DNA from: a virus
Virus record (IMG/VR): IMGVR_UViG_3300015603_000015
Span: 1-27,803 of that record
Length of the DNA: 27,803 bases
Direction: 5' to 3' (one strand)
Numbering within the stretch: the stretch's first letter is position 1; every line of letters starts with the position of its first letter. Below the pieces are notes generated by a model, which saw only the letters and a list, made by a program, of their open reading frames with translations, was not told the DNA's origin and did not search any database. The translations under genes and the position numbers were made by a program. Positions 4,872-25,841 of the stretch are shown here, one piece after another.

Positions 4872-5144
4872 CTATAGTTTATTTTTTATTTCTAGTAATT
4901 TGTTATAGCTATCTTTTGCTGCAATAATATCCAAATCATTGTTAGGAAATCCATAGTTTAGAAAGAATTCTACATCAGAAAGGAGATATTCTATATCAGT
5001 CTTTAATAATGCTCGTCTGTGATTACTTCTCCCTATAATAGAATATGCGGACACGATATCTGCATATTCTACCATGAAGCTGTATTTAACACCCTGCAAT
5101 GTAAGAAAAGTTTTCTGTTCATTACTAATCTCATTTAGTCTCAT
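4872..5144 (-). CDS. MRLNEI-leader small protein, paralog of 21974-22267
   Basis: A 90-residue soluble protein beginning MRLNEISNE. It shares with the protein at 21974-22267 the MRL-x-EI N-terminus, an N-H-R-x-x-LL or N-R-H-R-x-LL element, and FLNY-x-F followed by a D-rich stretch and a closing L-x-x-IK helix; the two are evidently paralogs. Its ATG lies inside the last codons of the small upstream gene (14-base overlap). The N-terminus matches the leader found on three unrelated proteins in this window and contains L-x-E and S-x-E, possible prohead-protease sites. Function unknown. Confidence 0.75.
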   Translation of the reverse strand: MRLNEISNEQKTFLTLQGVKYSFMVEYADIVSAYSIIGRSNHRRALLKTDIEYLLSDVEFFLNYGFPNNDLDIIAAKDSYNKLLEIKNKL

Positions 5145-5298
5145 TTTGCCTATCCTCTTCTTTCCATTCCTCTATCATTTTTTTCATCTTTGTCTGCCTT
5201 TCTAGAGATCTCTCATACAACTCTCTTAGAAATTCTTGCGATTCTGCCGAATTTGGATCCTTAGGTGGATTAATTAATTCATCTAATTTCTTTACCAT
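5131..5298 (-). CDS. Small charged protein, paralog of 22264-22434
   Basis: A 55-residue gene. The ATG at 5298 has AGGAGA upstream, embedded in the last codons of uvsX. The product starts MVKKLDELINPPKDPN and continues as a highly charged helix (EFLRELYERSLERQTKMKKMIEEWKEED). The gene at 22264-22434 starts MKKLDELSNPPK and has the same length, so the two are paralogs. In both places the small gene is followed, in overlap, by an MRL-x-EI protein, forming a repeated two-gene cassette. Function unknown. Confidence 0.75.
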   Translation of the reverse strand: MVKKLDELINPPKDPNSAESQEFLRELYERSLERQTKMKKMIEEWKEEDRQNETK

Positions 5299-5300
5299 AA

Positions 5301-6383
5301 TTATTCTCCTAAAACTATTTTCTCTTCGACAAGATCAGCAATAACAACTTTCAGATCATCCTGAGTAAACTCGTCCATAATAACCTTCATCTTACCAAGG
5401 TCATTCCAATCCTTTCGGAAATACTTCATTTCTTCGCCGGTCCTCTTGGAGATGTATTTATAACGATTCCCCTCTTTTATTAATACTCCCGATTTTTCAA
5501 ACAGATCGAACAACCCGGATACTGGATTCATACCTGTCTCCCACGGAATATTAAGTTTAATCGATTCAAACGGCTTCGAATATCGAGTCTTTACAACCTT
5601 ACATGTCGCACGAATACCTGTAACCTCGGCAACCTTGTTACCTTCTTCGTCTTCCTTTAACTTATATTTCTTCATAGCAACAATAATGCTTGAAGCAAAC
5701 ATAAATCCTGAACCGCCAGAGATTTTATCATCGGGGTCAAACATATCCTGACTTGCATATGTGTGATTGGTAACAACCATCCCGATATTTAAGTCACCGA
5801 ACATATTAACACAGTTTGATACAAAAGCCTTTAATTGCTTTGCTTTGCGGCCCATATCACCCTTCATGTCACCTGCTTGAAATTGATTTACTTCAGTTGG
5901 CGTTAATAGCATTCCGATAGAATCAATAATAAACAGAATCTTAGGGCGTTGCTCTTTTGGTAAATCAAGATGATTTGCTTTGTAATCGGTTACGAAATCG
6001 TGAACAATCTTTGCAACTTCATCAATCATAGATGCGCTAATACGCAGCATCTTTTCTTCACTTGTATCTACACCAAGTGGTAATAGCCACTTTTCGTCAA
6101 GTGCATTCTCTGTGTCAATCATGACAACAAAGATATCCTGCTCTTGAGCTGCTTTAGCAATATTACCAGAAACAATATAAGACTTGCCTGCGCCTGATTC
6201 TCCTGCAAATACCGTTACCTTGCCCATTGGCACTCCTTTGTAGAAGTCTCCACTGATAAGATAATTTAATCCATAGGATCCTGTGCTAATCCATGTATCT
6301 GGATCATTGAATCCTGTAGAAATGCCTGTAATGTTTTTTGTTAAGTTTTTACGAAACTTTGAAATGTCGAATGGTCGAGCCAT
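5301..6383 (-). CDS. uvsX: UvsX, RecA-like recombinase
   Basis: UvsX forms a filament on ssDNA and catalyses strand exchange in phage recombination and recombination-dependent replication. The 360-residue product has Walker A GESGAGKS (61-68), the Walker B strand KILFIIDSIGML (about 148-159), a DMKGDMGRKAKQ loop with NHTY, and the GGSGFMFASS region typical of UvsX. Length is close to T4 UvsX (about 390). The start at ATG 6383 follows AAGGAGAACCT, a strong ribosome-binding site. It is directly downstream of gp32, its single-strand-binding partner, and shares a transcription block with the uvsY-like gene and uvsW. Confidence 0.96.
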   Translation of the reverse strand: MARPFDISKFRKNLTKNITGISTGFNDPDTWISTGSYGLNYLISGDFYKGVPMGKVTVFAGESGAGKSYIVSGNIAKAAQEQDIFVVMIDTENALDEKWLLPLGVDTSEEKMLRISASMIDEVAKIVHDFVTDYKANHLDLPKEQRPKILFIIDSIGMLLTPTEVNQFQAGDMKGDMGRKAKQLKAFVSNCVNMFGDLNIGMVVTNHTYASQDMFDPDDKISGGSGFMFASSIIVAMKKYKLKEDEEGNKVAEVTGIRATCKVVKTRYSKPFESIKLNIPWETGMNPVSGLFDLFEKSGVLIKEGNRYKYISKRTGEEMKYFRKDWNDLGKMKVIMDEFTQDDLKVVIADLVEEKIVLGE

Positions 6384-6392
6384 AGGTTCTCC

Positions 6393-6434
6393 TTAATGAG
6401 AACTCGAACGTGCAAATGCAGAGGTTCGAGCCAT
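6393..6434 (-). other. Mini-ORF and hairpin in the gp32-uvsX gap
   Basis: The 57-base gap holds a 13-codon reading frame (ATG 6434, stop at 6393) beginning ATGGCTCGA, which repeats the first codons of uvsX (ATGGCTCGACC) about 50 bases downstream. The same stretch can form a hairpin with a perfect 7-bp stem (CTCGAAC 6403-6409 with GTTCGAG 6424-6430). No Shine-Dalgarno precedes the mini-ORF. It may be a relic of a partial duplication or a weak attenuator; I do not claim it is translated. Confidence 0.4.
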
Positions 6435-6440
6435 GTTATA

Positions 6441-7496: not shown

Positions 7497-7541
7497 GATT
7501 TTATTTTCCTTGTTAAACGCGATTAATTGCTTTGGTTTATT

Positions 7542-7576: not shown

Positions 7577-7583
7577 ATTTATC
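7576..7583 (-). promoter_or_regulatory. Late promoter GATAAATA upstream of gp32
   Basis: GATAAATA lies 80 bases before the gp32 ATG and after a terminator-like hairpin. By analogy with T4 late promoters, transcription would begin near 7570, inside the predicted pseudoknot, removing its first 5' arm. Confidence 0.65.
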
Positions 7584-9226: not shown

Positions 9227-10801
9227 TTAGATGCAGATAGGCATCGGCGATGCGAAAGTAGATTCTTCTGATATACCTACGTTACTATTAATCGCAGCCT
9301 GCGATTTATCATCCCATGTTGATATATAATCTGTCATTCTTATCGCTAAAATCATCGCCATAATTAAGTCATCTGTCTGTCCGATACGAGCCTCGAATGT
9401 ATTACCTCTTGACACAAATACCTTGAGCTCTGATAATAAACCACGAGAGTTTATCTTCATCTTGTTAGACTCGATTAAGAATTTCAGTTTGGCACAAGCC
9501 TCAAGTTTCGATTTATTAGTTGTAACGAATCCTGCGCGGCGCCCGCTGCGGCCTTGTAACCTATTTTTAGGATCATGCAACATTGTGCCAGGGAAGTTTT
9601 CTTCGCCTGTATCTCTAATAACAACTAATGCTGCTTCGCCTAATGAATTGCTTTCTACCGACCAGTATAATTCTGGTTTACCTGCTTCATATAATTCCTG
9701 CAGAATCTTCATCATAGTCCGAACTTGCTCTTCAATCGGTGTCTTATTACTACTCCATTCGGCTACCTGTACAAGTGTAGGCAATTCGATAACCTGTATC
9801 GCAGAATTATCACCCCCGGTGCCCATAGATGGGTCCAATGAAACAACATACGTCATCTGCGGATGTATATCTGTATACCAACGAACTTGGCCAGTCTTAC
9901 GAATAGGTTGAGATGGTTCTAGCTGAGAAAGCTTGACTGGGTTGATAAGCGTCTCTTCAAAGGTAATGAACTGGCATTTATGTTCACGTAGGAATCTATC
10001 TTCACCTAATGCAGCAAATTCTGAATCAGCCCATGCTTGATCACGATCTGGGTGCGCTTCCCATGTTGATATATAAGGGCGAAACCCATTCACGCCAATA
10101 ATAGTTTCATTACCGTTGGCATCAACTAGCTTATTGGCGCCAAACCAAATGTCAGCGAACTGATCTTCGTCGGTGTTTGGTGTGGAAGTAATAATACATT
10201 TACCACCAGTTGATAATGTGGGTGATAGTGAGGTCCAAAACTCTTTGGCTATATTAGGCTCCACGAACGCAAATTCGTCTAGATAAACAAGTGATAACGC
10301 CATACCACGACCGGTATTTTCAGTTGTTGTGGTTGCCACGATACGAGAATTATTGTCAAAGTCGATGGAACGTTTATTATAGGACTTTACCCCTGCACGT
10401 ATATGGTCGGGTACGGATTCATATGCATATCGTACTCTATGCATAATTTCTTGAGCCCCGTCGTATTTGTTGGATGCAACAAGAATAGTGGCATCTTCAT
10501 TGAACATTGCAAACCACAGTAAATATCCTGCCGCAACAGTAGTCTTTCCCATCTGCCGACTTACCATATTTACGGATTTTCTATATGTGTGATACGTTTT
10601 AATTAGATCTATCTGAAATGGATATAATGATAACTTCTGTCTACCCTGCGTTGGGTGTTGGATATACATGAAGTGGGTAATGAAGTACTCTGGTCCTGTT
10701 ACAGGATCCATGCATGCCTTCAATTCGTCTATTTGTTCTTTTGTATACGTTACCTTGGTGTAGGCACGCTTTACAAGTTTATCGTCTTGATAAATTGCCA
10801 T
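9227..10801 (-). CDS. 17: Terminase large subunit gp17
   Basis: The packaging motor ATPase and headful nuclease. Of 524 residues, the ATPase domain shows Walker A SRQMGKTT (81-88), Walker B LVYLDE (171-176) and the coupling motif ITSTPN (205-209 region). The RNase H-like nuclease domain shows Asp323 in SLDPSMGTGGD, Glu383 in SVESNSLG and the acidic pair near 477-478 in GQTDDLIMA. The ATG follows the preceding stop by three bases. The length is shorter than T4 gp17 (610), mostly at the termini. The terminase small subunit lies two to three genes upstream. Confidence 0.97.
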   Translation of the reverse strand: MAIYQDDKLVKRAYTKVTYTKEQIDELKACMDPVTGPEYFITHFMYIQHPTQGRQKLSLYPFQIDLIKTYHTYRKSVNMVSRQMGKTTVAAGYLLWFAMFNEDATILVASNKYDGAQEIMHRVRYAYESVPDHIRAGVKSYNKRSIDFDNNSRIVATTTTENTGRGMALSLVYLDEFAFVEPNIAKEFWTSLSPTLSTGGKCIITSTPNTDEDQFADIWFGANKLVDANGNETIIGVNGFRPYISTWEAHPDRDQAWADSEFAALGEDRFLREHKCQFITFEETLINPVKLSQLEPSQPIRKTGQVRWYTDIHPQMTYVVSLDPSMGTGGDNSAIQVIELPTLVQVAEWSSNKTPIEEQVRTMMKILQELYEAGKPELYWSVESNSLGEAALVVIRDTGEENFPGTMLHDPKNRLQGRSGRRAGFVTTNKSKLEACAKLKFLIESNKMKINSRGLLSELKVFVSRGNTFEARIGQTDDLIMAMILAIRMTDYISTWDDKSQAAINSNVGISEESTFASPMPICI

Positions 10802-10804: not shown

Positions 10805-11299
10805 TTAATACTCATCCCTATCTGGTTCATCATACTCTCGTTCTGATTGCTCGATATTCTCACCTTGCTTATTGAATGCTGGGGACATTAACTTAGCATA
10901 TACTGCTGGATTTAAGAGTTGTCTAAGAACAGTTGGGTCGATGATTTGTTGTGCATCACGAACAGAATAAGTTTCATTATCTATGTAGAAATCTTGGTCC
11001 GGAACGAAAGAAACTGAATTTATTTCAGGTATATTAACACTTGCATATGTTGAAGTTGTATATGTGGGCTGATCTCGACTATAGTTCCAGCCGGTAGGAC
11101 TCTCATCGTGTTCCCATTCCCATCCTGCAGAAGCGTTGATATCGAGATCAAATCCTATATCAACGATATTGCCTTCTTTATTCATGGCCTTACCGAAGAC
11201 ATTGATGCTGCTATCATAATCAATGCTATCGCCGTTAACCTCAAAGTCTCCGTAATAATCCTGAATCGATAGGTCAGAGACTTGTGCGCTTTCAGTCAA
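10805..11299 (-). CDS. C-terminal part of a frame-broken gene, or a separate TTG-start gene
   Basis: From about 11299 this frame reads as a good protein: LTESAQVSDLSIQDYYGDF, VNGDSIDYDSSINVFGKAM, GWEWEHDESPTGWNY, then a helical LRQLLNPAVYAKLMSPAF and an acidic tail. Upstream of 11299 the same frame is only a shadow of the preceding gene. No ATG with a ribosome-binding site opens it. Two readings fit: it is the second half of the 11292-12194 gene, joined across the A10 tract by loss of one A (slippage, +1 frameshift or a sequencing error), or it starts at TTG 11299 overlapping the TGA of that gene. Function unknown; it lies directly before gp17. Confidence 0.65.
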   Translation of the reverse strand: MTESAQVSDLSIQDYYGDFEVNGDSIDYDSSINVFGKAMNKEGNIVDIGFDLDINASAGWEWEHDESPTGWNYSRDQPTYTTSTYASVNIPEINSVSFVPDQDFYIDNETYSVRDAQQIIDPTVLRQLLNPAVYAKLMSPAFNKQGENIEQSEREYDEPDRDEY

Positions 11300-12194
11300 C
11301 TTTTTTTTTTGGTATCTTTGCAGATTCTTTTGATGGAGGGGCCTTTTTCTTTTCTCGGTGAGCTGCTTCTGCCTTTTCCTGCGCATCGAGTTTCTTCTGG
11401 AGCCTTGCAGTTCCGGAAGCAGATTTGGAATATGTTTTACCTTCCTGCACAGAAGATTCTTTAAGGTAATTTCTATAGCCATAAACGAGTTCTTTGTGAA
11501 CCTCAGCAACCTGCATTTTCTTCTGCTCTGGATTATCGCCCTGACGAGCGCCAGATGGACCGACCGCTTTTACAACAGGACTATCTGCACCATTGGGGAA
11601 GAAATCCTCTCCGTTTGCATTATCAATATCGTCATATCCGTTGTTTAGATCGAAATCTTCTTCGAATTCTTCGCCATGATTACCGTAATCTTCGTCAGAC
11701 CCGTGACCAGCACTTGCAAGTGCATCAGCATCATCAGACATATCATAGGACCCTTCGGGCTCAACATCCAAGCCTTGCTCACCGCTAAATAAAGACATAA
11801 TCCCCGACTGAGCATCTTCAAGGTCTTCTGCGCTGGCACCTTGAGACTGTAACTCGCGCATAACAGTTGACATTGCCTCCTCGGGATCAACGAACGAGTT
11901 CGTTAACTCGTTAAAGCGCATCATTGCCCACTCACCTGCGTGCGAGCCATCATCTGGGGCACCTTCTGAGGTTGGAGTTCGACCAGTATTTTTAGCGAGT
12001 GTTTCTTTGCTACTTATTTTATCTTCATAATCGTGCCGCTGAACATCTTGTGGTGTTAACGGTGCCTGGCCTTGCGCTTTGCGCCAGGCTGTAGGTACTT
12101 CATATGTTCCAGGGCGGGCACCTTCTTCTACCCCAACTCCGGGTACTGCTACTACACCTTCCATAAGGTTAATTAATTGTCTCATATTTTTCAT
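11292..12194 (-). CDS. Acidic structural candidate, N-terminal part, ends at A10 tract
   Basis: This 300-residue frame starts at ATG 12194, overlapping the upstream TAA, with AGGAGT six bases before it. It begins MKNMRQLINLMEG, which resembles the short N-terminal helices of T4-like head-targeted proteins and includes L-M-E followed by G, a match to the prohead-protease consensus. Residues ~40-220 are low-complexity and acidic (many D, E, G). Then come ELVYGYRNYLKES and a lysine/alanine-rich end KESAKIPKKKVD. The frame closes just after ten consecutive A bases; the next frame continues as a plausible C-terminal domain. Scaffold or core-protein roles are possible by composition and place, but not shown. 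Confidence 0.7.
   Translation of the reverse strand: MKNMRQLINLMEGVVAVPGVGVEEGARPGTYEVPTAWRKAQGQAPLTPQDVQRHDYEDKISSKETLAKNTGRTPTSEGAPDDGSHAGEWAMMRFNELTNSFVDPEEAMSTVMRELQSQGASAEDLEDAQSGIMSLFSGEQGLDVEPEGSYDMSDDADALASAGHGSDEDYGNHGEEFEEDFDLNNGYDDIDNANGEDFFPNGADSPVVKAVGPSGARQGDNPEQKKMQVAEVHKELVYGYRNYLKESSVQEGKTYSKSASGTARLQKKLDAQEKAEAAHREKKKAPPSKESAKIPKKKVD
11301..11310 (-). repeat. A10 homopolymer at a reading-frame break
   Basis: Ten consecutive A on the coding strand fall at the last codons of the 300-residue frame. With nine A, the frame would read through as PKKKLTES into the downstream domain. Poly-A of this length is a known substrate for polymerase slippage and for sequencing errors. Confidence 0.85.
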
Positions 12195-12853
12195 TATAGA
12201 ACTCCTACTTTCATTAGGGTTGGCTTTTTAACACGGCCAAAAAGTCCTAAATCATCTTTCTTTAAATTCTTTGGATCGTTAAAACTATCATAGCCCTTTG
12301 GCGGAGCATCAGTTGACTGTGTTGGACTCAACGGATTTATAACGGTAGTAACTGCTCGTTCCTTACTAACTTTCTGTAGTTCTTGTAAGAAACTTGTATT
12401 GTACTTTTCACCGTACGGAACTGTATCAGTTTCTTCGTGATCACTTCCGAGACGTGTTTTATATTTTTTCTTGAATTCTGGGGAATTTCTGTCAAGGTAT
12501 AGATCTGTTTCAATTTGGCGGGGATCGTTACTCGAATATACAGCTAGCAGGGCTGGTGATACTCCCATGTTGCTGCATAGATAAGTTCTAAGGAAATCTA
12601 ACGATGCAGGATATCCCATTGTAAGGTCACATGTGAATACAGATGTATTTTTTACATTAGGAAAGTCTAGTGGGCTCTCTTGGATAGGGGTTTTTCTAAA
12701 TGCCGATGCCTTTACCAACTCATACTTCTTTAAGCATGATTCGAGTACGTCAATCATCTCTTCGGTCATTTCATTTACAGCAAATTTCAAGACATAGTTA
12801 TAGTCTGTCTTTGTCTCTGCAACATATGATATAAATGATTTCTTTTCTGCCAT
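12194..12853 (-). CDS. Conserved T4-like phage protein, late, unknown
   Basis: A 219-residue protein with GGAGTTACTT before its ATG and a late promoter 22 bases upstream. It begins MAEKKSFISYVAETK, faintly similar to T4 head-targeting leaders. Then follow VLKFAVNEMTEEMIDVLESCLKKYELVKASAFRKTPIQESPLDFPNVKN and TCDLTMGYPASLDFLRTYL, a ferredoxin-like alpha/beta pattern ending in VSPALLAVYSSNDP. I recognise this FPNVKN-type core from unnamed conserved proteins of T4-like phages. The C-terminal 70 residues are polar and probably disordered. It is cotranscribed with the acidic gene and gp17, so a virion role is likely but not demonstrated. Confidence 0.75.
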   Translation of the reverse strand: MAEKKSFISYVAETKTDYNYVLKFAVNEMTEEMIDVLESCLKKYELVKASAFRKTPIQESPLDFPNVKNTSVFTCDLTMGYPASLDFLRTYLCSNMGVSPALLAVYSSNDPRQIETDLYLDRNSPEFKKKYKTRLGSDHEETDTVPYGEKYNTSFLQELQKVSKERAVTTVINPLSPTQSTDAPPKGYDSFNDPKNLKKDDLGLFGRVKKPTLMKVGVL

Positions 12854-12873: not shown

Positions 12874-13380
12874 CTATTTATCAGAGTTTTCCATTTTACC
12901 AGACACAATATATTTTAGGAGTTCGTTCCTGTCAAATTCGCCACCTCCAGCTAACTTTCTTTCCCCATTGCCCTGGTCTAGATCAATTTGTTCTGCACGA
13001 ACTTTTCTAAGTTGAAGCTCAATCATTTTTAGCTTCTTATCAGCCTTTGATATTTTAGAGTCTGCTGCTATCTTAAGAAATTGCGCTGCTACCTCGAAAA
13101 TCTTGCCGGCATGCATGTCTGGTACATTGCCGCCTAAATCGCAAAGATCTTCAAACTTTGCCATTGCCCTTTTAGCAACATCATCCATCTCGTTATCGTG
13201 CGATTCAAGGCCAACGACAATAGGTAATGCAAAATCAATCTTTTCTGCGGTGGTAAGAGCATTGCTGATCGCTGTGGCTTCGATTACAAGCTGTTCTCTA
13301 GATTTCGTAGGTAAGGCTTCTTCTACCGCGGGCTCTTCAGTGGGCGGTAGGTTGAAAAAATCTTCCATTTTCTTCGTCAT
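12874..13380 (-). CDS. 16: Terminase small subunit gp16
   Basis: gp16 recognises phage DNA and stimulates the gp17 ATPase at the start of packaging. The 168 residues match the T4 length (164). After a disordered acidic N-terminus (FFNLPPTEEPAVEEALPT) there is a helical core, including VVGLESHDNEMDDVAKRAMAKFEDL and HAGKIFEVAAQFLKIAADSK, like the coiled-coil oligomerisation domain of gp16, with a following helix KLKMIELQLRKVRAEQID. The ATG overlaps the TAA of the gp4 gene. Adjacent gp4 and gp17 support the call. Confidence 0.85.
   Translation of the reverse strand: MTKKMEDFFNLPPTEEPAVEEALPTKSREQLVIEATAISNALTTAEKIDFALPIVVGLESHDNEMDDVAKRAMAKFEDLCDLGGNVPDMHAGKIFEVAAQFLKIAADSKISKADKKLKMIELQLRKVRAEQIDLDQGNGERKLAGGGEFDRNELLKYIVSGKMENSDK
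12875..12882 (-). promoter_or_regulatory. Late promoter GATAAATA embedded in the gp16 stop
   Basis: The motif supplies the last gp16 codons (GAT AAA TAG). It is followed by a leader containing CACTGGAGTTA that is nearly the same as the leader of the gp13-like gene. Confidence 0.68.
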
Positions 13381-13820
13381 TAGGCTTTTCCTTTCGGATT
13401 ATTAAAAATGTTACCTTCGTTCATAACCCTAAACGTCATGCCATGATGCTGAGCAAATGCTTGTGCTGCTGCCCATTTAAAAGTATTCAATGCGACCGCT
13501 GCCTTAGCCTGTTGAGACTTTGCTTGTTCTAAGAACGTCTCCTTGGCTGGCTTTACTTCGATAATCTCTGCCTTCTGATTACCTTTAGCATCCACATAAG
13601 TTACTACAAAATCAGGCACATACACAGTATATTTACCAGTAAATGGATTTTGATAGGGGATTTTTAAAGATTCACTTGCCCAGCTAGATATGTTCGGATT
13701 GGTATCGAACATAACCATTACCTTAAATTCCCAACTACTCCTAAATTTTGGAGCATGATTCCCAACATATTTCTCCGGATGTATCGGTTTGTAAATTCCT
13801 TGAACATAATTATTCGCCAT
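13380..13820 (-). CDS. 4: Head-completion protein gp4, nuclease-like
   Basis: T4 gp4 (also called gp50/65 group) completes filled heads so tails can join. The 146 residues show the family pattern: KYVGN, RSSWEFKVMVMFDTNPNISSWASESLKIPYQNPFTGKYTVYVPDFVV, then AEIIEVKPAKE. The PDF and EVKP elements are the PD-(E/D)xK core of a TnsA/restriction-like fold, suggesting a DNA-end trimming function. Length equals that of T4 gp4 (150). In T4, gene 4 is far from 16-17; here it lies just upstream of 16 with a one-base overlap, so packaging and completion genes are clustered. Confidence 0.85.
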   Translation of the reverse strand: MANNYVQGIYKPIHPEKYVGNHAPKFRSSWEFKVMVMFDTNPNISSWASESLKIPYQNPFTGKYTVYVPDFVVTYVDAKGNQKAEIIEVKPAKETFLEQAKSQQAKAAVALNTFKWAAAQAFAQHHGMTFRVMNEGNIFNNPKGKA

Positions 13821-13830: not shown

Positions 13831-14547
13831 TTATGCCAGTGGATCTACTAATACCAACTGCGGAATATTTCCAGTGATACGCCACATAATATTACCACTA
13901 TGAATATCTTCAGTAAATTCCTTACTATCATCTATTAGATATTTAATAGCAAGCAATGCATCTCTAAGATTTTCATCCTTAACAGCATTGGCATTCTTTA
14001 AACCTCTTATTAATTGGTGTTTAATAAGATCACCATACGCTCCCCTTATATCATCATACTCTTCATTTGTATTGTCGTACCCTTCTTTCTTCTGTATATC
14101 TTTTCCAAACATATTATTACATAAGGCCGACATTAAATCTTCATTGCCTAATATCTTTGGTGTGTCGAATGGTATTAATCTCTCCATGTTAACCCGATAA
14201 TGGAGTTTCCCATCATTGCCTCTCATTATCTTCAAGTCGTGTATTACCGGAAAATACGGATTATTATTGCCTTCATGTTTGCAACCATCCACCATTGCTA
14301 GCCAAGATAGATATCCATCATCACTTATTTTATCGGCGGGGATTATTCTGCCATTTGGCATACTTGCTGCCTTTCCAATCTTTGTTATTTGATTTAATCG
14401 CTTGGGAGAATCTGTGGCATAAGCGGCACCGAAAGACCCATGGCCCATGTGGGTAGGATTAGTTGCTCTTTGAACTCGTTGAGAGTAAGATCCAACGCTC
14501 TGATTACTTTGTTTCGGATCGAAGTCTATTAATTCGTATAATCTCAT
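13831..14547 (-). CDS. Truncated protein-kinase-like protein with MRLYEL leader
   Basis: A 238-residue protein beginning MRLYELIDFD. Kinase-like landmarks appear in order: glycine loop GHGSFGAAY (35-43), a candidate ATP lysine in ITKIGKA (K56), a hinge-like segment YRVNMERL (117-124), a catalytic-loop match with Asp214 and Asn219 in DIHSGNIMW, and a metal-binding Asp235 in LVLVDPLA. The protein ends three residues after the Asp235-Pro, so the activation segment and rest of a C-lobe are absent. Similar DxHxxNIM...DP endings occur in small phage proteins. Whether it phosphorylates anything is unknown. The leader suggests packaging in the head. It is in the late block between a structural candidate and gp4. 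Confidence 0.65.
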   Translation of the reverse strand: MRLYELIDFDPKQSNQSVGSYSQRVQRATNPTHMGHGSFGAAYATDSPKRLNQITKIGKAASMPNGRIIPADKISDDGYLSWLAMVDGCKHEGNNNPYFPVIHDLKIMRGNDGKLHYRVNMERLIPFDTPKILGNEDLMSALCNNMFGKDIQKKEGYDNTNEEYDDIRGAYGDLIKHQLIRGLKNANAVKDENLRDALLAIKYLIDDSKEFTEDIHSGNIMWRITGNIPQLVLVDPLA

Positions 14548-16278: not shown

Positions 16279-16286
16279 TATTTATC
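16279..16286 (-). promoter_or_regulatory. Late promoter GATAAATA immediately before the gp54-like ATG
   Basis: The motif ends seven bases upstream of the start codon. By the T4 spacing, transcription would start at about 16273, giving an essentially leaderless mRNA. Confidence 0.6.
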
Positions 16287-17027: not shown

Positions 17028-17035
17028 TATTTATC
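17028..17035 (-). promoter_or_regulatory. Late promoter GATAAATA before gp19
   Basis: Exact motif 29 bases upstream of the gp19 ATG, overlapping the TGA stop of the protease gene (TTTGATAAATAG). gp19 is needed in many copies, so a private promoter makes sense. Confidence 0.72.
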
Positions 17036-17723
17036 AAATCTCCGAAATTTTTTTGCCGGCACTTATTCCTGCAAAATTATTAATAACATAAGATTCCCCT
17101 ATATCTACATTGCAGGAATATGGTATAGCAGCATACCCCTGAAATCCCCATTGTGGACCTAGTGAGTTTGCGATAATCCACGATCCACCGTTTAGGTCAT
17201 CATCATACCCAATAATAGTGGCCGCATGGCCATTTGATTGTTTATTATCACTCCCATTCACTGGTTTATATTTATGCTCTTCGAGTTGACCTTGTAGATC
17301 CCAAAATAACTCTCCAGTTCTTATACCAATTATAATCGGAATAGCTCGACCTAGATAATCCTTATACTCTAACGGTGATATCTCGCTATATGAAAGTGCT
17401 CTATACCTGGCCGCTTCCTCCATAGCCTGTTCGTGAGGCTCTCTGCCTATTCGATAAAAAGTAAGTGACCAATATTTCTCAGGAGGTGCGCCATATCTAT
17501 TCAGTGTCTCTAATGTGTGGCCTAACTCGACGCCTGCCATATTTAACCTACCTTGCATTTTCTGTGTCATGTAATATAGAAAAAGTCTAGATAAATTTAC
17601 ACTATTCCCGACACATGCCATAGTTATTTCGGCGGCCAGTAGAGTCGCGCAGGCAGTGCAACATGGAATATTCTCCTGAGGTTGCAGGTAATCTATATAC
17701 TTTCTTAATGAGGTAGATGCCAT
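17034..17723 (-). CDS. Papain-like (C1-type) cysteine protease
   Basis: I start at ATG 17723 (229 residues); the longer frame begins inside the terminator palindrome. The papain catalytic set is complete: Gln16 six residues before Cys22 in QENIPCCTACA (papain Q19...C25), His166 in NGHAATIIGYDDD (papain H159), and Asn186 in SWIIANSLGPQWGFQGYAAI (papain N175, the NSWG...WG..GY motif). There is no signal peptide or obvious propeptide. It sits between gp18 and gp19 with its own terminator before it, a promoter variant, and a late promoter at its end. Late expression could mean virion maturation or a host target; the T4 prohead protease gp21 is an unrelated serine enzyme. The substrate is unknown. 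Confidence 0.85.
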   Translation of the reverse strand: MASTSLRKYIDYLQPQENIPCCTACATLLAAEITMACVGNSVNLSRLFLYYMTQKMQGRLNMAGVELGHTLETLNRYGAPPEKYWSLTFYRIGREPHEQAMEEAARYRALSYSEISPLEYKDYLGRAIPIIIGIRTGELFWDLQGQLEEHKYKPVNGSDNKQSNGHAATIIGYDDDLNGGSWIIANSLGPQWGFQGYAAIPYSCNVDIGESYVINNFAGISAGKKISEI

Positions 17724-17730
17724 ATCAGAA

Positions 17731-17738
17731 TATTTACC
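17731..17738 (-). promoter_or_regulatory. Variant late promoter GGTAAATA before the protease
   Basis: One base differs from GATAAATA. It lies between the palindromic terminator and the protease ATG, with seven bases to the start codon, so initiation at the T4 spacing would leave a two-base leader. Confidence 0.45.
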
Positions 17739-17740
17739 TA

Positions 17741-17770
17741 AAAGAATGCCGGCCCGGGCCGGCATTCTTT
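17741..17770 (-). terminator. Perfect 30-base palindrome, terminator after gp18
   Basis: AAAGAATGCCGGCC is followed by its exact reverse complement around a central CCCGGG core, giving a 13-bp stem with a four-base loop, ending in a TTTT run on the minus strand. It lies 14 bases after the gp18 stop. GC-rich stem with flanking A and T is typical of a factor-independent terminator; because it is symmetric it could work in both directions. Confidence 0.85.
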
Positions 17771-17783: not shown

Positions 17784-20700
17784 TTAAGGTGTTGTTAAAC
17801 TTGCACCTGTGTTCTTAATTCTGATAGGAATGTAAATAAACTCAATTGCCTTAACTGGTTGAATTGCAATGTCAATCCAAAGTTCATTTCTATCAATGCG
17901 AGCTGGGGTGTTATTGCTAAGGTCGCAAACAACTAAGAAGTCGTATAGACCACGCAATGTAATAAGTTCGGATAAGAATCTATTAAATGCATCTAATACC
18001 GCCTTACGAGTTGTTGTATCGTTCGGTTCAAACAAGAATGGCTGTGCAAGCATATTCAACTGGTAGCGCAAGTAGTTTTCTAAACGAACCACGTTGATAC
18101 GGTCAGTTGCACTTGCATAAGGTTGACGTGTCTTCTGGCCAAATATAACAATGCCACCCTGCGGCATAACGCGGATTGGATTAATACCGTTCTGGTACAA
18201 GATATCACGTTGACCTTCATTCAGCTTAACTGTAACAAATTGACCTTGAGCGTTAACATACCCAACTGCTGCCGCATTATTAACGATACCACGTTGTAAA
18301 CCTGCTGGAGCAAACCATGGGTAAGCAACCTGATCGTTATACGCAATAGTGCGTAAGGCCATGTGCGATGGTGGAACAACAACGTCAGTACCATCAACGT
18401 TTGTACTCAATCCGCTCGGATACCATGCAGAGAAGTATTTACTTGCTGATACAAGGCCGTCGGCACCATTGCCAAAAGCATTGGCGTGGTCAGTTGCCCA
18501 GTTTTGTAATGATGTGCCGGTTGCAGCTAGTGTAAACGGTGTATCACCTACAATAAATGCTGTATCCTTGCGATCATCGTTCAATACAAGCATCTCGTCA
18601 ATTGCTTCAACAAAGCCTGGAGCAGCAATAAGATTGAAGTACAAGTCTTCTGCGCGAATGTCTTCGTTAGAAATAACCGCCGACTGAATTGCTCTAACTA
18701 TGACTATCTGCTGTGCTGCGGTACCCATGTACGGCGCACCGCCCGGGTTATTACCCGATGTCGAAGACCAACGTCCGGTTGAACTGCTATGTGTATTATC
18801 TGCTGATGCTGTCACATCATTGAATACGTATGGTGATTGCCATACTTTAACGTTATTTGTTGAATAACGTGTATTCCATAACATAAATCCCTTCGGATAT
18901 AAGTCAGCATCTGGAGCATCTGGATCTAAGTCTGGATTGCCATCACCACCGTTGTTCTCACCTGCGCCACCCTGTGTATATAGAGGGTTAGAACGTGCAT
19001 CCTGGAAAAGAATACCGTGATTTGTAGTCTGGTCTGCATTATCCACAAGTACCCAGGCGCTACCGTTCCAGTAGTGAATTACTGGGTATGGTGATACATC
19101 AGTATCTACCCAGATATCGTTTATAACTAGCGATGGCGCAGGAACATTGTCTTGCGGATCACCGGACTGTGAGAACACAGTTGGGTCGCCTGCTGTTGGC
19201 GCTGCATCTACAAAGGTAAATCCTTCGAGGTTAGCATTTTGCCAGCTGCCTGCACCATCAGCGATAAGAATATCAACTGTTGATTCGCCGGCGCCATTTA
19301 CACCAACTTCGCCGTTAAACCAGAGTTGGCCATTTGTTGGGCCTCGTGCCGGAACAGTTGCTGAGCCAACAACATTGGTCAACGGTGCCCAGGCACCGGA
19401 CGTATTCATTCTGAATTCTAGTGATCTTGCTGCCCCTTCTGCCACCGGCATGATATATATCTGCCCTGCAGAACCGGCTGCATTTGAGCTGTAATAAGCA
19501 TCTGCTGCGGCATCATTAACTAGGACTGGTGCTTCAACTTGCACAAATGCTCCCACAGATGCTTCCATCTTGCGTAGAACAAGATTTGCACCTTGTGCTG
19601 CTGAGCTTGTTTTAACCCAATATTCCTGAACTGTTGATGCTACTGCTAAATTGGGCCATATAGACTGGATTGTCATATCAAACCCTGCTGTAACAACCGC
19701 TGAACTCCCGCTGCCGGTGCTAATTGATAGAACCGGAACAACGAAACCGCCGGCCTGTAGACCGGACCCGGCCGGGTTAGATAGAACACCAAGATCAGCA
19801 GGTAATGCACTTAATTGATCACCGACTACATATCCAGTACCTGCAGCGACTAATGTTATTGTGGTAACATTTGTAGCTCCATTAACAATAATATCAGCTG
19901 TTGCGCCAACGCCGTGACCACCAACTAGTGGAACAGATGTATATGTGCCAGGTAGATAATTTAATCCAGTGTACCCCGGACCGGATGTTGCAACAATCGC
20001 GCCAAATGTAGCAATTGGGCCGCTTGCCACTATTGCATTACTGACTGAGTCTACAACGATATCGAATCCGCTGCCACCGGCGCCGCCTAGGTCGGCATCT
20101 GACGCTGATAAGTGATCGCCAGCTGTATAACCGGTACCTGGGCTAGTAATAAGAACTGCTGGGTCGTTAATCACACCACCAACATTTGTGGCACTATTAA
20201 TATTAATGGTTGCTCTTGCACCTGTACCTGTACCACCAGTTAGTGGCACATTTTCATAGATGTTTGGTAGATAGCTACCACCTGGGGTAAGTGTACCAAG
20301 TGTTGCGATACCGCCAGCAAATGTAATACTACCACCAGTCAGTGGTACTGAAGGAATCGCCGAAACTGTGAATGTTGTTGAACTAGTAACTTCTGTAATC
20401 ACGGTATTTAACGCAAATGCTCCTGTACCAGCTGATACAGTTGGGACCATCCCGGCCGCTAACCCGTCAGTTGAGTCAACAGTAACAATATTACCGGACG
20501 AACTTGCAGTGGCTGTTGAAGTATATGCTGTAGCACCTATTTGGCTCCACTCACTATTAACCATTACCCAGTATGATAATGTACCTAATGCTGTTTGAAA
20601 TACTACTGCATGATTGCCATCAACCCCATCAGCGCTCGATGGTGTATTATTTGTACCTGTCGCAAAGTCATATACAAAATTCGGTGTTACTGCTGCCCAT

Positions 20701-21179
20701 GTTTCGTTTGGAGATCTTCCCGAACGGGTGAATAATCCATATGATGAGCCGCTGGATGATTGGTCAAACCAGTACGTACCGATCGCTGCCGGGCTTGTTG
20801 GCTCAATTGGCGTTGCTTCTAATTGTGCTGTGTCGACGTCTGCGCGAACAACTCGGCATAGATTAGAAATACCTAAATATGAGTACGCGGCAAGCAAACC
20901 ATATTCGTTTAATGGATATCCATTTAACGATGTTCCACTAACCGAATAAAATACTGGGTCTCCAAATGTGGATACCAGATCTCGTTGAGACGTAATAGAC
21001 CATACCTGACCTGCATTTGCTTTGGTTGTGCCTGGGGCCACTACTCCGGAACTCGTTGGGTCTAACTTATCTTGTTGTGTAGCAATAAAAATAAGTGGTA
21101 CGGTACCTGGTCCGGCACCAACATTGATGCTCTGATCGATAACCGAAACACTTACGCCTGGGGATACTAGAACTGCCAT
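17784..21179 (-). CDS. 18: Tail sheath protein gp18, greatly enlarged
   Basis: The contractile sheath subunit. N-terminal residues 1-118 (VLVSPGVSVSVIDQS, FGDP, EYGLLAAYSYLGISNLCRVVRADVD) and C-terminal residues ~820-1131 (QGGIVIFGQKTRQ, INVVRLENYLRYQLNMLAQPFLFEPND, GLYDFLVVCD, RNELWIDIAIQPVKAIEFIYIPI) are clear gp18 signatures; the C-terminal part makes the conserved core. The length, 1131 residues, compares with 659 in T4. The extra material lies in the middle, including two tandem G/T/V-rich domains at ~290-490. Expression is from a late promoter 40 bases upstream with AGGAGTTAAATAT before the ATG. A perfect-palindrome terminator follows. Confidence 0.95.
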   Translation of the reverse strand: MAVLVSPGVSVSVIDQSINVGAGPGTVPLIFIATQQDKLDPTSSGVVAPGTTKANAGQVWSITSQRDLVSTFGDPVFYSVSGTSLNGYPLNEYGLLAAYSYLGISNLCRVVRADVDTAQLEATPIEPTSPAAIGTYWFDQSSSGSSYGLFTRSGRSPNETWAAVTPNFVYDFATGTNNTPSSADGVDGNHAVVFQTALGTLSYWVMVNSEWSQIGATAYTSTATASSSGNIVTVDSTDGLAAGMVPTVSAGTGAFALNTVITEVTSSTTFTVSAIPSVPLTGGSITFAGGIATLGTLTPGGSYLPNIYENVPLTGGTGTGARATININSATNVGGVINDPAVLITSPGTGYTAGDHLSASDADLGGAGGSGFDIVVDSVSNAIVASGPIATFGAIVATSGPGYTGLNYLPGTYTSVPLVGGHGVGATADIIVNGATNVTTITLVAAGTGYVVGDQLSALPADLGVLSNPAGSGLQAGGFVVPVLSISTGSGSSAVVTAGFDMTIQSIWPNLAVASTVQEYWVKTSSAAQGANLVLRKMEASVGAFVQVEAPVLVNDAAADAYYSSNAAGSAGQIYIMPVAEGAARSLEFRMNTSGAWAPLTNVVGSATVPARGPTNGQLWFNGEVGVNGAGESTVDILIADGAGSWQNANLEGFTFVDAAPTAGDPTVFSQSGDPQDNVPAPSLVINDIWVDTDVSPYPVIHYWNGSAWVLVDNADQTTNHGILFQDARSNPLYTQGGAGENNGGDGNPDLDPDAPDADLYPKGFMLWNTRYSTNNVKVWQSPYVFNDVTASADNTHSSSTGRWSSTSGNNPGGAPYMGTAAQQIVIVRAIQSAVISNEDIRAEDLYFNLIAAPGFVEAIDEMLVLNDDRKDTAFIVGDTPFTLAATGTSLQNWATDHANAFGNGADGLVSASKYFSAWYPSGLSTNVDGTDVVVPPSHMALRTIAYNDQVAYPWFAPAGLQRGIVNNAAAVGYVNAQGQFVTVKLNEGQRDILYQNGINPIRVMPQGGIVIFGQKTRQPYASATDRINVVRLENYLRYQLNMLAQPFLFEPNDTTTRKAVLDAFNRFLSELITLRGLYDFLVVCDLSNNTPARIDRNELWIDIAIQPVKAIEFIYIPIRIKNTGASLTTP
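19719..20312 (-). repeat. Two tandem domains inside gp18
   Basis: Residues ~290-382 and ~390-487 share an ordered set of motifs: Y/G-LP-x-Y/T-x-x-VPL-x-GG, G-x-GA-x-A-x-I-x-x-N, ATNV, GTGY-x-x-GD-x-LSA and a D/ADLG ending, followed by a G/F-rich strand. They read as duplicated beta-rich decoration domains, of a kind seen in phage fibres and surface-exposed virion proteins. Confidence 0.7.
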
Positions 21180-21973: not shown

Positions 21974-22267
21974 TTAGGGAATCTGTTTCTTAATCTTGTT
22001 TAATTCGACGATAATATTATTTGCTTCTAGTTTTAATTGATCAATATCTGAATCGGGATCGAAGTCATAATTCAGGAAAGGTTTCATTTCTGTCTCTAAT
22101 AAGTTTATATTCCCCAATAACGGTCTATGTCGATTAGGGCCCACTCTCTTCTTTAGAAAGAATTCATGAGAGTCTTTGATAAACTTAAAATCATCTATAA
22201 ATTTAATTCTCATATTCCTTAAATTTATAATTATCTGATTACTAGATAATATTTCATCTAGTCTCAT
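21974..22267 (-). CDS. MRLDEI-leader small protein, paralog of 4872-5144
   Basis: A 97-residue protein starting MRLDEILSS, with ATG overlapping the stop of the small upstream gene (CCATGAG). It shares the MRL-x-EI leader, NRHRPLLG, FLNYDFDPDSD and a final IK-containing helix with its paralog near uvsX. Basic patches (KFIDDFKFIKDSHEFFLKKR) suggest nucleic-acid or protein binding, but this is only composition. Function unknown. Confidence 0.75.
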   Translation of the reverse strand: MRLDEILSSNQIIINLRNMRIKFIDDFKFIKDSHEFFLKKRVGPNRHRPLLGNINLLETEMKPFLNYDFDPDSDIDQLKLEANNIIVELNKIKKQIP

Positions 22268-22434
22268 GGTTCAGGTTTTCCATTTTTTATCCATTCAACC
22301 ACATCCGGATTTTCTCTTTTCATCTTCTCTAGGTGATTATGCAAATTCTTAGTTATACCTTGTATAAATGCAACCTGTTCGTCTATACTCGGCCGAACTT
22401 TAGGTGGATTGCTTAGTTCATCTAATTTTTTCAT
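22264..22434 (-). CDS. Small charged protein, paralog of 5131-5298
   Basis: A 56-residue frame starting MKKLDELSNPPKVRPS at ATG 22434 with AAGGAATAAT upstream and ending in overlap with the next ATG. The same N-terminal LDEL-x-NPPK and almost the same length as the product of 5131-5298 show common descent. The rest is a helical, charged segment ending EWIKNGKPEP. Function unknown. Confidence 0.72.
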   Translation of the reverse strand: MKKLDELSNPPKVRPSIDEQVAFIQGITKNLHNHLEKMKRENPDVVEWIKNGKPEP

Positions 22435-23249: not shown

Positions 23250-23274
23250 ATGTGTACTAACTCCAGTGATACAC

Positions 23275-23282
23275 TATTTATC
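23275..23282 (-). promoter_or_regulatory. Late promoter GATAAATA before the gp13-like gene
   Basis: Exact motif just after the HTH-gene stop. The leader that follows (GTGTATCACTGGAGTTAG) is nearly the same as the leader at 12875, suggesting a conserved translation-initiation region. Confidence 0.72.
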
Positions 23283-23286
23283 TATA

Positions 23287-23937
23287 TTATCTATTACTCG
23301 TGCGGCCGCGATTGCTGCGGCCGCCAGGGCCCTGAAGTCTATCATTGCCTATCGATCCAGCACGGTATATATTAGTGGTAACTTGATTTTTTGCATCATC
23401 TTTAAAGGCGTCAATGGATGCATTATGCTGTTGTTTTAACTTAGCAAAATTAGGTAAGCGTTTTAAATGATACGCTACTCCTACGTCCGAGATTCCTACA
23501 TATTTCGCCATAGCATTAAGTGTGGCGCCGGCGGCATACATGCGGGACAAAGTGGCCATTTCTTTAGCTTTCTCTTCAGGAGTTAATAATGGCCTCCGAT
23601 CAACCCGAGGTGTCCGATCTGTATAATGATATTTCATTATACCTTCTATATCAGCTATTGTTAGATTAGACTCAGATGCTATGTCTTTAAATGGTAATCC
23701 TTGATCATATAATGTCTTGACCTTGGCAATCTCTTCGGGAGTAAGGTCTTCTCTTCGTAATTCACGATCATGAAAATATTTCTTCAAAATATTGGCGACC
23801 TTGTGAAATGGTATTTCGAGTTGTGACGCAATATCTTTTACCAAAACACCTGTATCATACAGATGTTTTATTTGTAACTTCAACTCTTCCGGGATAGCAT
23901 CTTTCCGAGTTTCGGTAATAAATTCATATAATCTCAT
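23287..23937 (-). CDS. Triple helix-turn-helix protein with MRLYEF leader
   Basis: A 216-residue protein I start at ATG 23937 (MRLYEFITETRK); an upstream TTG at 23952 would add five residues but lies in the previous gene's stop region. Three HTH-like units follow: EELKLQIKHLYDTGVLVKDIASQLEI..VANILKKYF (~20-58), PEEIAKVKTLYDQGLPFKDIASESNL..IEGIMKYHY (~67-105) and AKEMATLSRMYAAGATLNAMAKYVGI..VAYHLKRL (~124-162). The first two are clear repeats of each other. The basic C-terminus (GPGGRSNRGRTSNR) would also bind DNA. A regulator or a packaged DNA-binding protein are both possible. The leader holds I-T-E, a match to the prohead-protease consensus. Confidence 0.8.
   Translation of the reverse strand: MRLYEFITETRKDAIPEELKLQIKHLYDTGVLVKDIASQLEIPFHKVANILKKYFHDRELRREDLTPEEIAKVKTLYDQGLPFKDIASESNLTIADIEGIMKYHYTDRTPRVDRRPLLTPEEKAKEMATLSRMYAAGATLNAMAKYVGISDVGVAYHLKRLPNFAKLKQQHNASIDAFKDDAKNQVTTNIYRAGSIGNDRLQGPGGRSNRGRTSNR
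23302..23324 (-). repeat. Two GCGGCCGC octamers in the HTH gene 3' end
   Basis: GCGGCCGC occurs at 23302-23309 and 23317-23324, seven bases apart, in an otherwise AT-rich region. Each is self-complementary and together they form an 8-bp all-GC hairpin next to the stop codon. There is no T-run after it, so terminator function is uncertain. Confidence 0.6.
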
Positions 23938-23942
23938 ATCTG

Positions 23943-23950
23943 TATTTATC
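23943..23950 (-). promoter_or_regulatory. Late promoter GATAAATA immediately before the HTH gene
   Basis: The motif overlaps the TGA of the exonuclease gene and ends six bases before ATG 23937. With the T4 spacing, +1 falls on the A of the ATG. Confidence 0.62.
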
Positions 23951-24407
23951 AATAACCTAAGGTTCCTTTCTTCATTACCAGGGCATCATCTAATGCGTTA
24001 TGAATATCGTAGTTGAATTTAAAAACAAGAGCCTCTTCGACATCAGTTGGAACATATACCGGGTGATACTGGTTCTTATGTAGGTTGGCAGGCCATAGAA
24101 TTTCCAGGAGCCTGTGAATATGCGGCATATCCCAACTCGGGTTATCACACCCTAAAATACATTGTCCTGACTGATCTTCCACCCATGCACCTAACTTAAG
24201 AGCGCAATCATATGACGACATACGATATTCACCACCCTTTAAAAATGGCAGGACAAAACTCTTAACAAACTCTGAGCAATCTTTTAGCTCATATGTGTCA
24301 GTTAATTCAGCATAGAAGAAGTCTTCATGCTCATTGACTAGCGCAATGCTGATGAGTTTATTTCCCGGTACAAGATCCGTGAATTCGGTATCTAGAAATA
24401 GTATCAC
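23949..24407 (-). CDS. DEDDh 3'-5' exonuclease, DnaQ-like
   Basis: A 152-residue exonuclease of the DnaQ-like superfamily. Motif I is FLDTEF (Asp6, Glu8), motif II is probably CDNPSWD (Asp88 or Asp93), and motif III is HNALDDA (His136 and Asp141, the DEDDh type). The start is GTG 24407, overlapping the upstream TGA (GTGA), with AAGGATTGACAA before it. It is free-standing and short, so it is more like a nucleotide-recycling or RNA/oligonucleotide-degrading enzyme than a polymerase proofreading domain. The substrate is unknown. It is coupled to the 387-residue gene. Confidence 0.85.
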   Translation of the reverse strand: MILFLDTEFTDLVPGNKLISIALVNEHEDFFYAELTDTYELKDCSEFVKSFVLPFLKGGEYRMSSYDCALKLGAWVEDQSGQCILGCDNPSWDMPHIHRLLEILWPANLHKNQYHPVYVPTDVEEALVFKFNYDIHNALDDALVMKKGTLGY

Positions 24408-25567
24408 TTGTCAATCCTTAAAATAACATGGTGCTCATTCAACTTGCCGCCGCACGGAATATCGACAGTACTTAATTCCTTCATAAAAGTGCGAAGCTTT
24501 ACCTTACTCGCCTTTTTAAAGTTAGCGAGCGTCTCGGCCGGCTTACGGACCGTTTTTTCTGCAGATTCTGACGAATAATTAAGTAAACTAGCGCCTTTAA
24601 CACTAAGGCCGCGCTCGTCTAGTGCTTTATATTGTGCAATTTTGCGTGTCTTCGTATTATATATCCAAACTTCTCTACTTCCGATGATATGTACAGGATT
24701 CAAACTTACGATTCCTAACGTGGAATCTTCCTTCTTGAACTTGAGTTTGGAGACGACTTTCTCTTGTGACACTGGTTTTTTCTTTCGTGGTGCTCTTTCA
24801 ACTTTCGCAACCTCTTGCATCATATCACATGCCTTGAGTAAGTTCTTGTTGAAGGTATCACATTTCTTTAATTCGGGTTTTGTGTAGTTGGAATATGCTT
24901 CAACTAGGTCTTTATCTTTACCTGCCAATGCTTCGCTGATCTCAGCGGTGCGGTGTTCAAAGATCTCTCTCATAAACCGCATATGTGGAGCCTTCAGGTT
25001 ATTAGATTTAAATAAGTTAATGAAATCGTCGATAGACTTCACAGGGATCTTCTTATCTATCGAAAAGTCATCTAGCCACCCTTCCACCTCCCCCGCGACT
25101 TCCCGTGCTTTGTCTCGGATTCTATCTTGGATCGTGATAACCACCTTAGAAACCGAGTCAACGACCGTATTGCTAGTTTCTTTGCTCGCGATATACTTGG
25201 CTTCCTTCGCCGCGGCGGCCACTTTGGCTTCTTCTTCATGTATAACCTTCTCCAAGGCGGGTACCAATTTCGGCAATATATCATCAGGTATATCGCCGGC
25301 GTGATTAAGAATGTACATATATTTACCCGTTGTGGTAAATCTATTTTCATCCATATCTTTAATCCTTTCTAATAGAGGGTGTTTAACATCTAATGTCTTT
25401 AGATATTTCACAGTTTCCCTTTTCAATTCAATAGATGTCAGCTCGTAATGAGCATACATCATTGCTGCGTGAAAGTTAACTTTAAAGTTTTTGTTGGTTT
25501 TAACTGTTAATGTAAAGTCTGGGTGGGGCCAACTTACATATACACCTGATAATTTCTTAGCTGCCAT
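24404..25567 (-). CDS. Conserved T4-like phage protein, 387 residues, unknown
   Basis: A lysine-rich, mostly helical soluble protein with AGAAGGATAGTAA before its ATG. Features: an N-terminal alpha/beta region (YVSWPHPDFTLTVKTNKNFKVNFHAAM), a long charged helix (EKVIHEEEAKVAAAAKEAKYI), FKSNNLKAPHMRFMREIFEHRTAEISEAL, a basic linker RAPRKKKPVS, then KLKFKKEDSTLGIVSLNPVHIIGSREVWIYNTKTRKIAQYKA and a C-terminal beta-rich tail. The last block I recognise from conserved, unnamed genes of T4-like cyanophages. It may be a structural or DNA-associated protein. Nothing in it identifies an enzyme. Confidence 0.75.
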   Translation of the reverse strand: MAAKKLSGVYVSWPHPDFTLTVKTNKNFKVNFHAAMMYAHYELTSIELKRETVKYLKTLDVKHPLLERIKDMDENRFTTTGKYMYILNHAGDIPDDILPKLVPALEKVIHEEEAKVAAAAKEAKYIASKETSNTVVDSVSKVVITIQDRIRDKAREVAGEVEGWLDDFSIDKKIPVKSIDDFINLFKSNNLKAPHMRFMREIFEHRTAEISEALAGKDKDLVEAYSNYTKPELKKCDTFNKNLLKACDMMQEVAKVERAPRKKKPVSQEKVVSKLKFKKEDSTLGIVSLNPVHIIGSREVWIYNTKTRKIAQYKALDERGLSVKGASLLNYSSESAEKTVRKPAETLANFKKASKVKLRTFMKELSTVDIPCGGKLNEHHVILRIDK

Positions 25568-25670
25568 TTACTATCCTTCTGATATGTAGCTATTTTAGCT
25601 GAGACTAAAACAGAAATGCAACTAATTGTGATTAGGTGCGTTCAGAGGGTATTTAGTAAGAAAGAAAGAA

Positions 25671-25841
25671 TTACTCTTCTTGAGAGGCGTCTTTGTGCTT
25701 CTCTTTGCGAGAATAGCCTTTTTTAGTATGGGCGCCGGCACCGGTTTTTTGAGCATTTTTCGCTACGTAGTTTCGTGGAGTCGTGGCCGGTACAACAGGT
25801 TTCTTAACGGTTTTTGCTTCAAATAGTTCAAATAATCTCAT
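25671..25841 (-). CDS. Small lysine-rich protein with MRLFELFE leader; internal-head-protein candidate
   Basis: A 56-residue protein starting at ATG 25841 with AGGAACAAC upstream; a TTG-start extension to 25916 runs through a hairpin and is rejected. The N-terminus MRLFELFEAK is followed by KTVKKPVVPATTPRNYVAKNAQKTGAGAHTKKGYSRKEKHKD, strongly basic and probably disordered, then an acidic end. Small, basic, with a cleavable-looking leader (L-F-E before A9), it resembles T4 internal proteins packaged with DNA. Similar RNYVAK..KTGAG proteins occur in marine T4-like phages as unnamed genes. Its late promoter lies 103 bases upstream with a strong hairpin between. Confidence 0.72.
   Translation of the reverse strand: MRLFELFEAKTVKKPVVPATTPRNYVAKNAQKTGAGAHTKKGYSRKEKHKDASQEE

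Follow-up and report, generated by a model that had tools for sequence, protein, structure and literature searches.

The window analyzed herein is a 27,803-base viral record of IMG/VR (IMGVR_UViG_3300015603_000015, at its full length), on which 37 genes were counted, nearly all of them on the minus strand. By Pfam matches and gene order, in particular a UvsW-like helicase, a RecA-like UvsX, a T4-type terminase, and a tail sheath, it is T4-like. Five of its genes, all on the minus strand, begin with MRLxE[LIF], a shared N-terminal leader that an earlier note had pointed out and that is read in the translations just as claimed. The start codons of all five are backed by orthologues, directly or via the family, and a second L/I/S-x-E site is present in three of the five leaders. 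We report herein that this leader is real, that it reaches far beyond the five genes first noted to at least 33 unrelated protein families, and that it is conserved as a peptide; probably, it marks proteins that are packaged into the phage head.

Two of the five tagged genes are paralogues with 30% identity (family 167), in keeping with the earlier note. One encodes 90 amino acids (4872..5144, minus strand), with the leader MRLNEISNE (5118..5144, minus strand) identified from the translation and the consensus of a position weight matrix; its orthologues in the relatives G013 and G002 begin MRLDEI or MRLHEI. The other encodes 97 amino acids (21974..22267, minus strand), and its leader, MRLDEILSS (22241..22267, minus strand, from the translation), is without a second L/I-x-E site. 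A scan of viral contigs with the 97-residue paralogue yielded no confirmed relatives. Each gene follows a small overlapping gene, and these partners are again paralogues of each other: a 55-residue protein, MVKKLDELINPPK (5131..5298, minus strand), and a 56-residue protein, MKKLDELSNPPK (22264..22434, minus strand). The partner N-termini, KKLDEL and KKINEL, resemble the tag. A two-gene cassette with a K[LI][DN]EL N-terminus on the upstream partner is thus duplicated in the window (4872-5298 and 21974-22434). It is kept in G002 and G013, and in G002 it adjoins gp14-like and nucleotide-kinase-like genes.

The third tagged gene (23287..23937, minus strand) encodes a 216-residue protein in which MRLYEFITE is followed by helix-turn-helix (HTH) units (Pfam HTH_7, 2e-11; HTH_38, 8e-8). 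Of the five leaders, this one (23911..23937, minus strand) lies nearest to MKTYQEFIAE of phage T4, and the orthologue in G001 begins MKISEIITE. A T4-type late promoter box, GATAAATA (ATAAATA; 23943..23950, minus strand), ends 5 nucleotides before the ATG of this gene. No confirmed relatives of the HTH protein were obtained in a scan of viral contigs. The fourth tagged gene (25671..25841, minus strand) encodes a lysine-rich protein of 56 residues that begins MRLFELFEA and belongs to family 97, with 23 homologous loci. Its leader, MRLFELFE (25818..25841, minus strand), was delimited by alignment of the homologues, 22 of 23 of which carry it at the same Met start. All eight leader residues are invariant across 20 aligned sequences, and the residues next to the leader vary. 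No match to this protein was found among cultured phages.

The fifth tagged gene (13831..14547, minus strand) encodes a 238-residue protein of family 38, assigned tentatively to the kinase fold by alignment, an AlphaFold model, and Foldseek. Its leader, MRLYELIDF (14521..14547, minus strand), is given by the translation and the family alignment, in which M1, L3, E5, D214, N219, and D235 are invariant among 11 homologues with the same Met start. The earlier note had taken this protein for a truncated kinase. That reading was rejected because all members of the family share this length (212-238 residues), with conserved catalytic-type residues. The model has a predicted local distance difference test (pLDDT) score of 81, and the leader, with a pLDDT of 35, is predicted to be disordered. 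Against the PDB, Foldseek retrieved protein kinases at an E-value of 3e-4 and aminoglycoside kinases as well, with template modelling scores of only 0.3-0.4. A weak profile match to the T7 gp0.7 kinase was also obtained (phrog_15752, 0.0056); another tagged protein, in the relative G017, matches the T7 kinase better (3e-8). On the model, the product may belong to a kinase-fold family, with D and N as predicted catalytic residues and another D as the predicted metal ligand.

The earlier note had proposed a search for the leader motif over the whole genome, and this was extended to 82 contigs, comprising the window and its relatives (2.7 Mb; 4,009 genes called). The T4-type terminase large subunit of the window (9227-10801, Pfam) is at most 96% identical to those of other viral contigs in the collection; among cultured phages, Pseudomonas phage PA5oct and its kin are nearest, at 62% identity. 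Proteins of the census were clustered into families after removal of their first 12 residues. The motif M[RK][LA]xE[LIFMV] opens 104 genes in 33 families, which have nothing in common after residue 12. The motif is carried at residue 2 by 33 families; at residues 20-100, the number of families per position averages 1.0 and never exceeds 3. Likewise, an extended form was found at 72 of 4,009 gene starts versus 9 of 16,244 internal Met codons of the relatives. Under a chance model with the position-specific composition of the relatives, the motif is expected at 1e-4 per gene, or 0.004 times in 37 genes; the probability of at least five tagged genes of 37 is about 4e-15, assuming independence.

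The leader profile shows R/K at position 2, L/A at position 3, no preference at position 4, E at position 5, I/F/L at position 6, and a favored E at position 9. The R, L, and E of the leaders are spelled by 16 codon combinations, and since the codons vary between copies, the peptide is the level at which the leader is conserved. Different versions of the leader also occur within single families: MRLSEFLIE, MRAIEFLTE, and MRADEFLTE on a KTSC protein family, exchange of MRL and MRA in family 45, MRAREILQE and MKIVELLVE (an MRA/MKI exchange) in family 64, and MRLFELFE versus MKAKEFIP in family 97. A second [ILAGS]xE site ending near residues 8-10 is found in 47% of the tagged families versus 6% of the others. 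When the gene starts of the Rak2-like phage CBB were scanned, no leader of the strict form was found, and Stenotrophomonas phage RAS14 has only a few similar starts (MKLNEL, MKLIDL); the tag is thus limited to a clade, and only one CBB protein, CBB_299, was informative. A literature search, largely of freely available papers, returned no description of the leader.

Evidence for virion association comes from PA5oct, whose GenBank record flags coding sequences found in the virion by electrospray ionization tandem mass spectrometry (MS); by our own count, these are 93 of 445 (21%). The strict motif of the window occurs on two PA5oct genes, both detected. A broad motif occurs on 10 genes, eight of which were detected (p=9e-5), under a rule that was fixed after the list had been viewed. 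To avoid the circularity of that rule, a profile was trained on contigs other than PA5oct only; by this profile, the detected proteins number four among the five best-scoring PA5oct proteins, six among the best 10 (p=0.007), and 11 among the best 20 (p=6e-4). In an orthology test, in which the tags were taken from relatives only and the homology from the protein bodies, 5/5 PA5oct homologues were detected versus 62/143 others (p=0.017). With the broad rule, the association was also seen among proteins shorter than 150 residues (5/7 tagged proteins detected versus 14/265; p=2e-5) and in the late half of the genome (8/9 versus 78/213; p=0.0025). In addition, CBB_299 (MRFSQITED), recognized by eye from the sequences as a distant CBB homologue of family 64, is listed in the published MS table of phage CBB (PMC5259590). 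Given a shared peptide on unrelated proteins and relatives of several tagged families detected in virions, the peptide probably marks proteins for packaging into the head and delivery together with the DNA.

Two further window genes had been put forward as divergent members of the set. Neither matches the leader profile, and in that sense the suggestion did not hold; both, however, have a conserved L-x-E or V-x-E of their own near residues 11-17 and MS-detected PA5oct homologues. The N-terminus MKNMRQLINLMEG of the gene at 11292..12194 (minus strand) is a possible propeptide of another kind, in which the consensus differs and L-x-E-G/S is conserved beyond the first 11-17 residues; its relatives read MNLQRMKQLAGI..LTEG and the like, and its detected PA5oct homologue is EST35_0203. 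Similarly, MAEKKSFISYVAE, at the start of the gene at 12194..12853 (minus strand), is a possible propeptide with a conserved [VI]AE. That gene matches phrog_14802, a virion protein, and its homologue EST35_0202 was detected. An [EI]xxLAGI-like motif is found both at the N-terminus of the head-cluster family of 11292-12194 (EST35_0203) and at the extreme C-terminus of the gp22-like scaffold EST35_0153. Judging by this recurrence, which involves too few cases for statistics, LAG[ILV] may possibly be a scaffold interaction motif.

Besides HTH proteins and a kinase-fold family, the tagged set includes SLT transglycosylases (5e-11) and KTSC proteins (1e-9), both in the relatives. Putative metalloproteases of the HExxH type, with weak Pfam hits, are tagged as well, and their PA5oct homologues, EST35_0380 and EST35_0381, were detected by MS. 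In two tagged proteins, a Tat-type (twin-arginine) export signal comes immediately after the tag: MRISEIIVEAPTDVSRRGFLKG (L202:17068-17964; Pfam TAT_signal, 7e-4) and MRLEEILEDISRRGFLKG (L101:5014-5322). In two others (L131:18559-19182 and L184:3288-3884), the tag is followed by a hydrophobic segment and then an SLT transglycosylase domain (E-values of 5e-11 and 9e-11), so that each is a possible head-packaged cell-wall enzyme. As far as can be judged from sequence, this mix of cargo fits host-acting proteins better than structural parts. An ADP-ribosyltransferase reading of a tagged protein in G009 (L174:9910-10923) has no Pfam support and is not claimed.

The ATAAATA box, known from CBB and GAP32 (PMC5259590), lies upstream of 30/104 tagged genes versus 495/3905 other genes (p=1e-5). 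Two classes were distinguished. In the far class, the box ends 17-24 nucleotides upstream of the start and a Shine-Dalgarno sequence accompanies it in 223/252 cases (88%); in the near class, about 13-fold above background, it ends 4-7 nucleotides before the ATG and is so accompanied in 7/142 (5%). In the window, the box of the HTH gene (23943-23950) and another at 16279-16285 belong to the near class. The geometry of T4 late promoters would put the transcription start of this class at the A of the ATG, which suggests that a large class of the late mRNAs of these phages is leaderless. No report of such a leaderless late-box arrangement was found in a literature search.

The best explanation of these findings, to which we give a probability of roughly 0.7, is a capsid-targeting leader that works like that of T4 but has a different consensus and a broad cargo. 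According to this explanation, M-[R/K]-[L/A/I]-x-[E/D]-[F/I/L], in many cases with a further x-x-E at residues 8-10, would be a modular leader of proteins made late by this group of T4-like phages. Through it, the tagged proteins would attach to the scaffold or core of gp22, or to gp23 from the inside, and would be enclosed in the prohead. A gp21-type prohead protease would then trim the leader at the second site in many of them, and the mature protein would stay with the DNA and enter the host along with it. Leaders without a second site may escape cleavage. The earlier note had regarded the L-x-E shared by all five leaders as a cut site; cleavage after L3-x-E5 appears less likely than after the second site, since L3 and E5 belong to the recognition consensus. 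The components of such a pathway are at hand in relatives, as G002, G008, G011, and PA5oct carry gp20, gp21-, gp22-, and gp23-like genes. The N-termini of the gp23-like proteins have [YF]L[AV]E (YLAE or FLVE) at the place of FLTE in T4 gp23, a site that resembles leader ends such as FITE and FLTE. Trimming and injection in the manner of T4 are plausible; scaffold binding, cleavage, location within the head, injection, early action on the host, and a like behavior of the five window proteins are what we infer.

Several observations weigh against this explanation. That the five proteins form a packaged set had been the central claim of the earlier note; a packaging role of the leader is well supported by its 33 families and by the over-representation of tagged PA5oct genes in virions, but a blastp comparison of the five window families with the MS-detected proteins of PA5oct returned no homologue. 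In PA5oct itself, the two tagged genes EST35_0075 and EST35_0382 escaped detection. Moreover, the MS list includes ribonucleotide reductase and GTP cyclohydrolase, which are probable contaminants, so detection is no proof of packaging, and MS detection does not place a protein within the head. Two of the five window leaders, like about half of the tagged families, are without a second gp21-type site. The window fragment itself is without protease, scaffold, and capsid genes. Finally, the leader of T4 IPII and IPIII scores -6.5 on the profile and reaches 5.0 only with one residue deleted; judged by sequence identity, the present leader is thus not a T4 capsid-targeting sequence in the strict sense.

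An alternative is that the leader marks virion proteins for some other place or purpose, as a peptide that docks to the neck, the tail, the inner surface of the capsid, or an assembly chaperone, and that it is never cleaved and does not serve injection. The families without a second protease site speak for it, as do the conserved L3 and E5, which look more like a binding motif than a cut site, and the location of tagged genes next to portal (EST35_0150, in the gp67 position) and tail genes. Nonetheless, the cargo includes enzymes and other proteins with no obvious structural role (kinase-fold, SLT, KTSC, HTH, and putative metalloprotease), and the leader ends resemble the gp23 maturation site, which makes this alternative unlikely. 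Enrichment of the late promoter box at tagged genes, together with the seemingly leaderless state of many late genes in these phages, raises another explanation, namely that the leader acts in expression, as a feature of late genes at the level of early codons or leaderless mRNA that only looks like a peptide motif, and that MS detection reflects no more than late, abundant expression. Yet the peptide is kept while the codons vary, on which ground a DNA- or codon-level signal was rejected. Moreover, the motif is missing from most leaderless late genes, the start of most tagged genes is of the Shine-Dalgarno type or has its box at a distance, and the MS association persists within the late half of PA5oct; we regard this explanation as very improbable.

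Shared ancestry, in the form of diverged duplicates or a functionless N-terminus spread by recombination, could draw on the family 167 paralogues and their duplicated cassette. It is scarcely credible for the whole set, because the bodies are unrelated folds (HTH, kinase fold, SLT, KTSC), the family 97 leader is more conserved than the adjoining residues, and the peptide is kept with differing codons; for the five window genes, common ancestry was rejected on the differing bodies and folds. Chance coincidence of residues as frequent as M, R/K, L, and E is refuted by the 0.004 tagged genes expected in the window and by the 33 families at residue 2 versus about one elsewhere.

Host defenses encounter the injected proteins of a phage before any others, and no rule is known by which such proteins could be recognized outside T4 and the phiKZ-like phages. 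In T4, IPI inhibits a restriction system, and one particular Escherichia coli strain cannot be infected without IPIII (PMC9391042). With a tag that predicts the virion content of PA5oct, dozens of hypothetical proteins of uncultivated phages would become candidate injected effectors, and engineered heads would gain a new peptide for loading. A bolder version, to which we grant somewhat less than an even chance, holds that in a whole clade of T4-like phages, uncultivated and jumbo, one short tag could address a payload that is both large and exchangeable. Such a payload (kinase-fold proteins, metalloproteases, transglycosylases, and DNA-binding proteins, some with a Tat-type export signal directly after the tag) would be packed into the head, trimmed, and delivered into the host ahead of phage gene expression; if so, injected effectors could be read off the sequence alone.

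Three other genes of the window deserve mention. A TnsA-like endonuclease domain (4e-20) is encoded at 13380-13820, in the head-tail cluster adjoining the terminase genes. A papain-type C1 peptidase (1e-7) is encoded at 17034-17765, immediately behind the tail sheath gene; in relatives, a late box immediately precedes an ATG further downstream in this gene, and the start assigned in the window may therefore be too far upstream. The tail sheath itself (17784-21179) is 1131 residues long, compared with 879 for that of PA5oct, and its central part contains long repeats rich in Gly and Thr.

Among known systems, T7 gp0.7 resembles the kinase-like protein of the window in its weak profile match and in the kinase fold suggested by Foldseek. 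The T7 kinase is an early product of infection, whereas the window gene sits among late genes and bears the leader. For the leader itself, one parallel is the propeptides of phiKZ-like phages (SPN3US gp47, gp53, and gp54), which also place identical N-termini on packaged head or ejection proteins and which a T4-type protease cuts off behind sites resembling A/S-x-E (PMC5694885). Those propeptides are mostly at least 100 residues long, while the present leader has 8-10 residues and belongs to T4-like phages. Another parallel is T4 itself, in which IPI, IPII, IPIII, and Alt carry an N-terminus of about 10 residues on unrelated bodies, in a phage that, like the relatives of the window, has gp21, gp22, and gp23. 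IPII and IPIII both begin MKTYQEFIAE, and the gp23 maturation site is FLTE (NC_000866); the peptide is described as a capsid-targeting sequence by which native and foreign proteins alike are sent to the core and which gp21 cleaves off (PMC9958956, PMC5694885). MRLYEFITE, MRAREFISE, and MKINDIITE (the last from PA5oct EST35_0150) have in common with it a basic residue at position 2, a hydrophobic core around E/D-F/I, and x-E as the ending. The leader described here differs in its R/K-L/A-x-E-F/I/L consensus, which is one residue shorter, and in being carried by at least 33 families rather than a handful, with packaging and cleavage here inferred. Thus, the leader probably works in the manner of the T4 sequence, and what would be new is its consensus and the breadth of its cargo.

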